In this document: positions 25,916 to 30,212 of the stretch, one piece after another | Position numbering within the stretch: the stretch's first letter is position 1 | How the letters are laid out: every line of letters begins with the position of its first letter | From: an uncultured Verrucomicrobiales bacterium | GTDB taxonomy: Bacteria; Verrucomicrobiota; Verrucomicrobiia; Verrucomicrobiales; DEV007 | Direction: 5' to 3' | NCBI GenBank assembly: GCA_943789025.1 | Contig: CALSSN010000019.1 | Span: 1-64,000 of the forward strand | DNA length: 64,000 bases | Translations under genes and position numbers: made by a program | The notes under the pieces: generated by a model | What the model was told of the DNA's origin: nothing | The model's database searches: none | What the model saw: the letters and a program-made list of their open reading frames with translations, nothing else

Positions 25916-26005
<90 letters not shown>

Positions 26006-26105: not shown

Positions 26106-27182
26106 CTAAGGTTTCTTGATCGGTTTGCCCGGGCTGTCTGTTTCTTCAGGTGATTTGGGGTTTCGATTGGAATTGCCTTGATCCGTGTTCAAAGCACGCG
26201 TTTCGGGTGCGTGCTGTTCAGGGATTCGGAAGATCTTGCGGGTGTAGGGGCAACGGACTGCGATACCGGGAGCCAGTCCCTCCACACTGACGAGTTGGTG
26301 TTTTTGCGCGAAGGGGCTGTAAACGAAACCCGGTTTGTTGGGAATGTTTTTCCCATAGGGAGGTAGACTCTCCGGAGTTTTTGTGGCGAAAGGCTTGTCG
26401 GGGATCTTTGCAGAAGGAGTCTCGGAGGGTGCCTTGATTTCGGTTCTTTTCGCAAGAGAGCTGCTTTCCGCTTTTTTGGAAAGAGCAGGATGGGCTCGAG
26501 AGGAGGGGATGGCAGGAAGGAGCTGCAATTTTTTTGTCGCAGGCTTCTTAGGCTCGGGCTTCTTAGGCAGTCCGCTGACTCTAGCGCCCGAAGCCGTAGT
26601 TTTTTCCCGGATCGTTGGGCGCTGGGTTTTGGGCCGAACGCCGGTGGCTTCTGGTGAACTTTTTAAAGACGAAGCAAGCTTCTTGCTTACTTTCGGTAGT
26701 CTCATGCGGGTCTGGTTCTGCGAAGAATTCTGTGCGACCGCTTCTGCTGGGATGACGAAGATTTTTTTGCTGTAAGGGCAGCGTATCTGGCTATGCATAG
26801 GAAAGCCTCTGACATCAATGATTCGCGGCGGAGTGGTGAAAGGGCTGAAGGCATACCCTCGTCTATGCTTGCCCGGCACCAAGAGTCCTGTGGGATGTCT
26901 CCCGATATTTTTCGGAGGAATCGAGATCGGATCCTTTTGCGCCTCAAGCGATCGTTTGCCGTGATAAGACAGTTGTCTGCTCGGAGATTTTCCTCCGGCA
27001 GCGCTCTTTTCGCTAAGATGCTGATGATGTGTAGCGCGGATGACGGGAATGAGCCCACATTCCCGGATTGGTTGCCAGGGTTCTCGGGGTGGGGTGCTGC
27101 AACAAGTCAGCTGCAGGAGAAGCAGAAAGCTGCCAGAACGAATGCAAAAACAACGAAGAGCAGAGTAGTTGAACAGTGTCAT
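26106..27182 (-). CDS. Putative lipoprotein with a duplicated CPY-x2-K-x-F-x-IP module
   Basis: 358 aa, no named family recognised. The N-terminus has a hydrophobic segment ending LLQLTCC, compatible with a lipobox. Two similar modules are separated by a Lys/Pro/Ser-rich linker. Module 1 (about residues 102-150) is VPGKHRRGYAFSPF then IRCPYSKKIFVIP. Module 2 (about residues 285-335) is KPGFVYSPF then VRCPYTRKIFRIP. Shared positions are G-Y/F-x-SPF, a V-x-G turn, RCPY and K-x-F-x-IP. The basic, low-complexity linker suggests an extended, surface-tethered protein. It is divergent from the exosortase-linked operon and may belong with envelope biogenesis, but that is only positional. Confidence 0.65.
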   Translation of the reverse strand: MTLFNYSALRCFCIRSGSFLLLLQLTCCSTPPREPWQPIRECGLIPVIRATHHQHLSEKSAAGGKSPSRQLSYHGKRSLEAQKDPISIPPKNIGRHPTGLLVPGKHRRGYAFSPFTTPPRIIDVRGFPMHSQIRCPYSKKIFVIPAEAVAQNSSQNQTRMRLPKVSKKLASSLKSSPEATGVRPKTQRPTIREKTTASGARVSGLPKKPEPKKPATKKLQLLPAIPSSRAHPALSKKAESSSLAKRTEIKAPSETPSAKIPDKPFATKTPESLPPYGKNIPNKPGFVYSPFAQKHQLVSVEGLAPGIAVRCPYTRKIFRIPEQHAPETRALNTDQGNSNRNPKSPEETDSPGKPIKKP

Positions 27183-27429: not shown

Positions 27430-29154
27430 ATGAACGGAAATGTTATCGGACGCCTGTGCCTGGTCGTGATAGGGTTGTATTTATCGTCGTTTTTGACCTT
27501 CCAAGTTCTGACAGATTACCGAAACAATCTTTCCAGCCTTTTTAAGCACCTTGCAGTTGGTGGTTTGATCCTTGGCTTTATTACGCCGCGGATGGGAATT
27601 TATGTGCTGCTTATCGTCTGTGGCTATCAGGATCTTCTTAAACGATGCCTGCTTTTTTTCGGGCAGGCTTATTTCGTGGATGTCATCACAGTTTTGAGTA
27701 TAGCCCCCCTTCTTTTCGCCGGAATTTGTGGCGGGATTGTTTTTGCGCGAACACGATCTGGCCAGTTTTTCGATAAGAAAGAATCAAAACTTTTATGCTT
27801 GGCTATAGTCATGATCTCGGTTGGAGTGCTTATGAGTGCTGTTAGCTCTGGTTCACTGAAATCTGCTGTTGTGGCGGGGTCTAGCTTCTTTGCATACATC
27901 CCGATGATAGTGTTTTCTGGGATCCTTTTTCCCACGTTGCGAGACCAGCGCGCCTACATCCGAGCCGCTCTTCTCATCTTCATTCCCGTGGCACTCTATG
28001 TTTTCAAGCAGGCATTTTTCGGGTTCAGCAACTTTGAGATTGCGTATATGAAATCGGGTCTCACGGTGATCTCCGAGGGGCTGCTAGGAGGCCCCGTTCG
28101 ACCCTTTTCAACAATGAGTTCGCCTCATTCGTTGGGAATTGTTCTCGCTATGCTTTTCAGTTTCAGCATTTACATGGCTCTCTCAAGTAACAGATTGCGC
28201 GTATTGTATTGGGCTCTTGCCTTCCTTTATGCAGGTGCTTTGATTCCCGGATTCGGGCGTACGCATTGGGCGATGGCTTTGATGATGCCACTGTGCTTTT
28301 TTGCTTTTCGGAGCCGTGGTCTTACCCGCGGTCTCTACGCGATGGCGGTGTCTGGTCTGGTCCTCCTGATTGCCGCATCGGGCTGGTTAAGGGAGGATGA
28401 CAATCTCTTTAAATTTTCGGTCGGCCAGGAATCGAACAATGAATGGGTGAGAGCTGTAGGAACTTCTGGAACCATGGGGGATCGTGTCAATGGGTTCTAT
28501 GATTGGTCACGGAACCCGGAAAAGTGGACGCTTTTTGGAGAAAAGAAAAATGACGCGGCCGGCATTCAGACTCATGATATGCTTGGATCGTTTCTTAAAA
28601 AGTATGGGGTAACAGGCTTTTTGGGAATTTTAAGTTTTACCGCTTATGGCCTTTTCTTGACGCATCGCGGGGTCCTGCGTCTTCGCGATCCTGGCAAGCG
28701 ACTTTTATGTATCTGTTATCTGAGTATTATTTTTAGCACGTTATTCACTGGTGCAGGCTCGGGTATGCACATTCATATGTTTCCAGTCAGCTATCTTTTC
28801 TGGTTTGCCGTAGGCGGGCTGGTAGCGGTTTTGAGTAAGAGCAGGGTAACGAAAAAGGGCGAGGCGACGGTGGCGGGGCAGCAAGAAAACTCAGTTTTTG
28901 CTCGAGCAGGAGGCGCGTTGGTAAGGGGTCGAGGAGACGGGCGTTCGTCTCTGCTTGGGCATGCAGATTTTTGCAAGCCTGATCAAGAGCGAGGCGTGCC
29001 CTTTCGGGGAGTTCGGGGAATTCCGTTTCGAGCATCAGGAAAGATGTTTGCGGTCGGGGAGGAAGGGGCAGATAGGCCCTCGTCTCGATTAACCTCCTCA
29101 TTTGGTAACGGGAAAAGCACACTTTCTTCACCTTCTCCAATGGGCCACGAGTGA
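27430..29154 (+). CDS. O-antigen ligase/polymerase-like membrane protein
   Basis: 574 aa with about ten membrane helices and a large periplasmic loop (about residues 330-400) in the position typical for the Wzy/WaaL (O-antigen ligase) superfamily. Within it GRTHWAMAL and an HDMLGSFLKKYG segment (cf. the usual H-N-x-(Y/L) motif) are visible. Such proteins are regular members of exosortase loci, where they assemble exopolysaccharide. The last 105 residues after LSKSRVTKKG are hydrophilic, Gly/Arg-rich and unlike the family, possibly a frameshift artefact. Exosortase and EpsI-like genes follow on the same strand. Confidence 0.82.
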   Translation: MNGNVIGRLCLVVIGLYLSSFLTFQVLTDYRNNLSSLFKHLAVGGLILGFITPRMGIYVLLIVCGYQDLLKRCLLFFGQAYFVDVITVLSIAPLLFAGICGGIVFARTRSGQFFDKKESKLLCLAIVMISVGVLMSAVSSGSLKSAVVAGSSFFAYIPMIVFSGILFPTLRDQRAYIRAALLIFIPVALYVFKQAFFGFSNFEIAYMKSGLTVISEGLLGGPVRPFSTMSSPHSLGIVLAMLFSFSIYMALSSNRLRVLYWALAFLYAGALIPGFGRTHWAMALMMPLCFFAFRSRGLTRGLYAMAVSGLVLLIAASGWLREDDNLFKFSVGQESNNEWVRAVGTSGTMGDRVNGFYDWSRNPEKWTLFGEKKNDAAGIQTHDMLGSFLKKYGVTGFLGILSFTAYGLFLTHRGVLRLRDPGKRLLCICYLSIIFSTLFTGAGSGMHIHMFPVSYLFWFAVGGLVAVLSKSRVTKKGEATVAGQQENSVFARAGGALVRGRGDGRSSLLGHADFCKPDQERGVPFRGVRGIPFRASGKMFAVGEEGADRPSSRLTSSFGNGKSTLSSPSPMGHE

Positions 29155-29194: not shown

Positions 29195-30212
29195 ATGAGA
29201 GGGAGAATAAGAGCAGTCGGCGGCTTGCAGGGAAGAGTTATTATCCCATTGGTTCTCGGAGTCACGGGTCTTGGGCTGTTCGCGTTTTTTCCGTATACGA
29301 CCGGTTACGGTGAGGTTCGTCGATCAGTTCTGGAAATGGTCTCCCGTTTCTGGCGCGGAGAACCTGACTGGCAGCATGGTATGCTTGTCCCCCCCGATTG
29401 TCTTTTTTCTCATCTGGCGTCTTCGTGACCGCTGGGCCTCGCTGCCTGTGAAGGGCTCGTGGGTGGGGCTGCTTTGCGTGCTACTTTCCCTCTTTTTCTA
29501 TTGGGTCGGATACAAGGCGAACGTCCTTTATTTCGCGATGATTTCCTGTCACGCTCTTTTTGCCAGTTGTATTCTCTGGATTTTCGGCTGGGAATATTTA
29601 CGGGCTCTTATTTTTCCGATTCTTTTTCTGACTTTTGCCTGGCCCCTGTTTTTCCTGACCGATACTCTGGCGTTTCAGCTTAGGCTGATCATGTGTGAGT
29701 TTTCTTCGCTCTTTTTCAACCTGATCGGTCTGGAAAACCTAAGAGTGGGAACCGCACTCGTTTCCGCGTCAGACCCGGTTGCCGGACTGGCGCAGGGTGA
29801 GCGGTTCGCGCTGGATATTGAGAGTCCTTGCAGCGGCTTGCGCTCACTTTTTGCCTTGATGATGGTTTCTGCTCTTTTTGGGTTTTTTACTCTCGGGCAG
29901 CCATGGAAACGCTGGATGCTTTTTGCATCTTCACTCCCCCTGGCGGTGCTAGGAAACTTTGTGAGACTTCTTCTGCTTGTTTTTGGAACATTGTTTCTAG
30001 GATCTGATGTTGCGGTAGGGAAGGACGGTGGAACCTCGGCCTATCATTTCCTCGCGGGAATTGCTGTGTTTATTGTGGCTCTGGGCGGTATGGTTGTGCT
30101 CGCTGCCGTCTTGCGTGGTCAGCGTGTGCAGTCAAGGACTGTGCGCATTTCGACCGGCTCGAATGTGAACTCCAAAAGTAGTGAGCAGGAGGCCTCGGAG
30201 GAAGGTTTGTGA
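29195..30212 (+). CDS. Exosortase (one apparent frameshift near the N-terminus)
   Basis: Integral membrane transpeptidase of the exosortase/EpsH family, which cleaves PEP-CTERM-type sorting signals. The three catalytic regions are intact: Cys in ESPCSGLRSL, Arg in GNFVRLLLL and His in AYHFLAG. The N-terminal part is in another frame: ATG 29195 reads through GLFAFFPYT and GEPDWQHGMLVPP and then loses frame at a seven-C run (29389-29395). With six C the frame continues as PIVFFLIWRLRDRW into the rest. Corrected, the protein is about 338 aa with eight or so helices, a normal exosortase. The EpsI-like gene follows 47 bases later. Confidence 0.88.

Follow-up and report, generated by a model that had tools for sequence, protein, structure and literature searches.

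A repeated Verrucomicrobiota lipoprotein module as a probable metal-free relative of zinc ribbons

The window, by which we mean the whole stretch of DNA that was analysed (64,000 nucleotides), contains on its minus strand an ORF call of 358 aa (26106..27182) for a basic, lipoprotein-like protein that carries two copies of a small module. As read from the sequence, the protein begins with a signal peptide (27102..27182, minus) ending in the atypical lipobox LTC-C, in which Cys28 is predicted to be lipidated. According to profile matches on the same strand, module copy 1 (HRRGYAFSPFTTPPRIIDVRGFPMHSQIRCPYSKKIFVIP) occupies 26748..26867 and copy 2 (NKPGFVYSPFAQKHQLVSVEGLAPGIAVRCPYTRKIFRIP) occupies 26220..26339; one sits mid-chain and the other near the C-terminal end. 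The copies were originally delimited as aa 109-145 (26748-26858) and aa 284-321 (26220-26333), and both were lengthened to these 40 residues by the family profile. They are separated by a linker of 138 aa (26334..26747, minus), rich in Lys, Pro, Ser and Ala and presumably disordered, which as drawn overlaps the first two residues of copy 2. A polar C-terminal tail of 37 aa (26109..26219, minus) follows the second module. On one side the gene has tRNA-Ser(GCT) (25916..26005, minus), a downstream neighbour outside the feature, and a gene for a DUF3641-containing radical SAM protein; on the opposite flank lies an exosortase (PF09721) gene (29271-30212) with a DUF3485 gene. Adjoining the exosortase gene, a 574-aa membrane-protein-like ORF (27430-29154) has no Pfam match at E 0.001.

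Aligned without a gap, the two copies are identical at 15 of 40 residues, and a Smith-Waterman comparison of the two halves of the protein scored 127, whereas none of 2000 shuffles exceeded 80. An earlier note on this DNA had described a duplicated module in a basic lipoprotein, joined by a Lys/Pro linker, and the protein agrees with this description on each point. The repeat is real, the linker has the expected composition, and the protein is basic (61 K+R, 22 D+E, pI 10.4) and has a lipoprotein-like N-terminus, although its own lipobox (LTCC) is atypical; relatives carry canonical lipoboxes, such as LASC. The note had also known no name for the domain, and this still holds: no named domain was found in the whole window protein by Pfam and NCBIfam scans, and scans of the module sets with Pfam, NCBIfam and PHROGs gave only scattered matches below threshold. 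No module among the 40 or 61 members scanned matched the zinc-ribbon families PF13717 and PF13719 above the Pfam cut-off. In NCBIfam, RNA polymerase subunit P, which is a zinc ribbon, was weakly matched by three of 40 modules (best E 0.017). The module profile had no matches among PDB sequences, and searches of open-licence papers turned up no account of the domain.

The module is widespread among the relatives of its host. With the whole window protein as query, matches were found in 29 of 57 related genomes, and iterating a profile over the retrieved loci raised the harvest to 47 module matches. The module profile matched 36 of 288 genomes of the phylum and, among the matches listed, all belong to the same class or order. 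Single genomes have up to 10 matches, several of them paralogues with different low-complexity upstream regions, and the genera concerned include Prosthecobacter, Verrucomicrobium, Brevifollis, Methylacidiphilum and relatives. When the species genomes of Bacteria and Archaea (84,980 in all) were scanned with the pattern V[RK]CPYTxK[LIV]F, 144 stretches matched, 143 of which encode a relative; among 80 of these that were listed, 79 titles name Verrucomicrobiota. The exception, L139, is titled Betaproteobacteria, but it resembles Methylacidiphilales loci both in its module gene and in one family of neighbours, and the contig probably belongs to a mislabelled bin. The profile search proposed in the earlier note therefore leads to Verrucomicrobiota and to envelope-type proteins, the restriction to the phylum applying to the common type of module, since a single pattern is blind to Asp-type and divergent ones. 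Among viral contigs, 65 pattern matches included no relative, and one module used as query had no match in plasmids and phages. In total, 125 distinct modules were collected in Verrucomicrobiota from 141 loci.

These modules are found in 129 distinct ORFs, of which 68 have one module, 57 have two and four have three. A relaxed lipobox pattern matched at least 105 of the 129. Some of the 24 hosts without a match are cut by contig ends, some are lipoprotein-like, and in a few, for example L016, the signal peptide seems to be of the ordinary kind. The last module lies at most four residues from the end in 103 of the 129 hosts, and in 55 the last Pro of the module is the end of the protein. In two-module proteins, the N- and C-terminal copies separate in a tree of 40 columns in which most forks are unresolved (4 and 7 label changes, compared with shuffled means of 33.5 and 18.9); because the copies cluster separately, we take the duplication to be old.

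At first sight, such an architecture resembles a C-terminal sorting or anchoring signal, by which the module would mark lipoproteins for Verrucomicrobial envelope transport or retention, as C-terminal domains do in other export substrates. The position at or within four residues of the C-terminus, the several paralogues per genome with differing upstream regions, and the lipoprotein-type N-termini of nearly all hosts are what such a signal would lead us to expect. However, 57 of the 129 hosts have a second, internal copy and four have three copies, the separation of N- and C-copies in the tree suggests separate roles, and no dedicated transport gene recurs beside the loci, where most neighbour families are unannotated. 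We therefore regard a sorting signal as unlikely, although it is the main rival to the docking function considered below.

A related question is whether the protein is an exosortase substrate. In substrates of exosortase (PEP-CTERM type), a membrane helix and a basic tail come after the C-terminal sorting motif. The 37 C-terminal residues of the window protein are polar and include no hydrophobic stretch, and the exosortase neighbourhood is not conserved. The earlier note had placed the gene beside an exosortase locus, and the neighbour is real in the window, but in 80 homologue loci, with flanks of up to 4 kb and 510 ORFs in all, nothing matched the window exosortase at E <0.1 (best 0.13). 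The exosortase neighbour is therefore local to the window, and an exosortase link for the family was rejected. Instead, an rlmH-family gene adjoins 43 of 49 two-module loci. Among the 27 loci L115-L141, a dnaN-family gene lies upstream in nine (L115 was tested as DnaN) and a tyrA-family gene lies directly downstream in six.

The window's own genome has two other module proteins, both with Asp at the Cys position. A single-module lipoprotein (L170:6208-6804, C3 of this genome) is encoded between recR and tyrA, and the genes downstream of tyrA, as read from their translations, would be aroA, cmk and plsC. This tyrA-side arrangement recurs in relatives, often with dnaN upstream. At L169:3857-4864 (C9 of this genome), a secreted-looking, Pro/Gln-rich protein of 335 aa has a C-terminal Asp-type module (VSPYLPRQILDITGMKKGEFGVDPRNGKVFLVP), and at L169:6191-6937 an ORF has tandem repeats of about 70 residues that contain WADAHNERTGKWPN.

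Column counts were made on 124 modules, after one weaker-scoring copy had been dropped; they are unweighted, and many modules come from close relatives. Pro is present at three positions in all 124, Gly at alignment column 26 in 123, and Phe, four residues after what would be the fourth ligand position of a zinc ribbon, in 121. According to PMC5906684, both hairpin turns of a zinc ribbon bear a CPxCG knuckle. In the module, the first of the corresponding turns reads [ST]P[YFH]x and the second reads [CD]Px[TS]. The first ligand position is S or T in 123 modules, and the four positions most often read SACT (45), STCT (21), TTCT (13), SDCT (8) and SNDY (7). More than one Cys or His at the four positions was found in none of the 124 modules, and 17 have none at all. 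The Cys and Tyr of the RCPY motif, which had been taken as invariant, are less strictly kept in this wider family: 107 modules have the Cys and 17 have Asp in its place, and the Tyr after CP is present in 100.

The single Cys nevertheless deserves consideration as a functional residue, namely a free thiol, an intermolecular disulfide or a shared metal site, in which case the module would be a redox or metal element. Besides being kept in 107 of the 124 copies, it is nearly the sole Cys of these proteins, given that the number of mature Cys equals the number of modules in 85 of the 105 hosts with a detected lipobox. However, Asp replaces it in 17 copies, including both other module proteins of the window genome, and the single-module proteins have just one Cys in 33 of 48 cases and none in 11, so that an internal disulfide is impossible there. 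We consider a functional Cys improbable. The exchange of C for D, together with S or T at the first position, appears from the sequences to fit hydrogen-bonded turn caps better than metal ligands.

A search for four-Cys intermediates with the pattern CPxCxKxFx[VIM]P matched five of 236 genomes of the class. Three of the candidates (L164, L165 and L166) proved to be ordinary two-knuckle zinc ribbons matched by their second knuckle, L167 was matched by its first knuckle, and L168 has one knuckle only; none of the five is a lipoprotein-borne module. Neither this pattern in the 236 genomes nor the set of 124 modules yielded a module that keeps three or four cysteines.

Two AF2 models, made from different sequences with overlapping alignments, are of moderate confidence: copy 2 of the window protein, with a 40-row alignment, gave pLDDT 76 and pTM 0.40, and a second member, with a 61-row alignment, gave pLDDT 81 and pTM 0.44. 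In both, strands at 5-7, 16-18, 27-29 and 36-38 form two beta-hairpins. VIA-align superposed residues 4-40 of the first model on residues 1-35 of LysW (5eio_C), with Z 3.5 and an rmsd of 1.4 over 35 residues. For the second model, it superposed residues 4-40 on residues 1-38 of the ZitP zinc finger (2nb9), with Z 2.8 and an rmsd of 1.6, again over 35 residues. Each overlay belongs to one model, LysW being missing from the list of the second and ZitP from that of the first. The comparisons covered 18 and 13 chains, respectively, and the Z values of 2.8-3.5 are low, as they would be for any domain of 40 residues. Module residues S8/A11/C30/T33 fall on LysW C5/C8/C25/C28 and ZitP C5/C8/C28/C31, a pairing drawn from the ends of the aligned ranges rather than from coordinates. 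With Foldseek against the PDB, neither model had a match below E 1, the best E-values being 3.8 and 2.7. Of the features of a zinc ribbon, the four-stranded core of about 40 residues in two hairpins is thus present in both models, with low overlay Z, and four Cys/His ligands in two CPxC-like knuckles are lacking in all 124 modules.

Profile comparison points the same way. The control tests used only 12 ribbons outside the CPxCxKxFx[VIM]P search; they were picked out in relatives with a Cys pattern for two knuckles (15 found, three left out), chiefly in loci brought in with Pfam Zn_ribbon models. Against these 12 ribbons, the 124 modules scored 20.9 local and 19.6 global. Two hundred column permutations reached at most 14.0 and 8.7, permutations with both turn motifs fixed at most 15.6 and 13.7, and 280 forty-column windows from real conserved neighbour families at most 14.1 and 9.7; the true scores were reached by none of 3 x 200 column permutations. 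A set of 17 ribbons scored 24.8, compared with 5.0 for reversed ribbons, and hhalign of A3 against the 12-row ribbon alignment A4 gave a probability of 92.5 (E 5e-7, one pair), figures to be read with the origin of five of the 17 ribbons and four to five of the 12 A4 rows in the CPxCxKxFx[VIM]P search, whose pattern resembles the second half of the module. The global alignment spans 36 columns, is interrupted by a gap of two residues behind the first knuckle, and pairs SPxx with the first CPxC and CPxT with the second, in the same register as the structural overlay. The A4 profile itself matched ZitP (E 0.00029) and LysW (E 0.00041), among other zinc fingers, in the PDB. The similarity between module and zinc-ribbon profiles is therefore beyond chance. 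That the module is a two-hairpin mini-domain of unrelated origin whose turns came to resemble those of zinc ribbons by convergence, as the lack of a significant Foldseek match and of a four-Cys intermediate and the bias of the local profile alignments towards the second half might suggest, is improbable when the 36-column global alignment exceeds every control and two separate models both overlay zinc ribbons over 35 residues.

We consider the module to be a degenerate, metal-free zinc ribbon, exposed in the envelope as a putative docking piece, with a probability of about 0.7. Its profile matches no named domain, so that the outcome by which the earlier note would have been refuted did not occur, yet the module appears to be a distant, ligand-less relative of the zinc-ribbon fold, and its descent from a zinc ribbon is very probable. 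The metal site of a zinc ribbon would have been lost and the domain transferred to the outer side of the cytoplasmic membrane, and the zinc-holding CPxC knuckles would have been replaced by S/T-P-[YF]-x and C/D-P-x-T/S, leaving at most one cysteine. As no three- or four-Cys intermediate was found, this direction of change is a putative one. S, T, D and C before proline can cap turns by hydrogen bonds, and because of such capping the fold probably stands without metal.

Most copies lie at the C-terminus of a lipid-anchored protein, or close to it, and follow a flexible linker. Displayed on such a stalk, the module would hold an envelope partner, by analogy with the cytoplasmic ZitP zinc ribbon and PopZ. 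According to PMC5182065, this ribbon of 43 residues binds PopZ, requires Trp35 and acts as a localisation element. Counted from the fourth ligand, the near-invariant Phe of the module would correspond to Trp35. Because Trp35 is needed for PopZ and matches this Phe, we favour docking, tentatively, as the function.

For a repeated, unnamed domain of Verrucomicrobiota lipoproteins, this reading offers a fold and a testable origin, and a profile derived from the module would allow many hypothetical lipoproteins to be annotated. A broader scenario, rather doubtful as a whole, is that Verrucomicrobiota took a cytoplasmic zinc ribbon, dropped the zinc site to fold in an oxidising, metal-poor envelope, and spread it as a standard C-terminal lipoprotein docking module, including one in the dnaN-tyrA-aroA neighbourhood, which would organise a phylum-specific envelope network.

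Among the closest known counterparts, LysW serves lysine biosynthesis as a soluble carrier of amino groups. Its zinc ribbon (5eio/3wwl) has the same topology as the module, at 1.4 A over 35 residues, and the same ligand register by range, but holds zinc with four cysteines. The ZitP zinc finger (2nb9; PF13719 Zn_ribbon_5 type) shares with the module its length (about 40 residues), a pair of beta-hairpins whose turns form knuckles, an aromatic residue four after the last ligand, and a place in a membrane-tethered protein. However, the ZitP ribbon is cytoplasmic and N-terminal, whereas the module is exported and mostly C-terminal, and where ZitP has the zinc ligands C5/C8/C28/C31, as given in PMC5182065, the module has S/T, x, C/D and T/S. 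According to PMC5906684, Cren7/Sul7 are likewise zinc ribbons minus metal chelation, stabilised otherwise, but they are archaeal chromatin proteins with an SH3-like end state, whereas the module is part of a bacterial envelope lipoprotein. Zinc-free (C-) ribosomal forms, such as that of S4, have lost four cysteines with the protein retained, and both forms occur in many lineages, as described in PMC3087516, whereas no four-Cys form of the module was found. If our reading is true, the module is a bacterial extracytoplasmic zinc ribbon that has outlived its zinc, beside the archaeal Cren7/Sul7 and ribosomal cases. De-metallated zinc ribbons are already known (PMC5906684, PMC3087516), and the lipoprotein module is a further variant.
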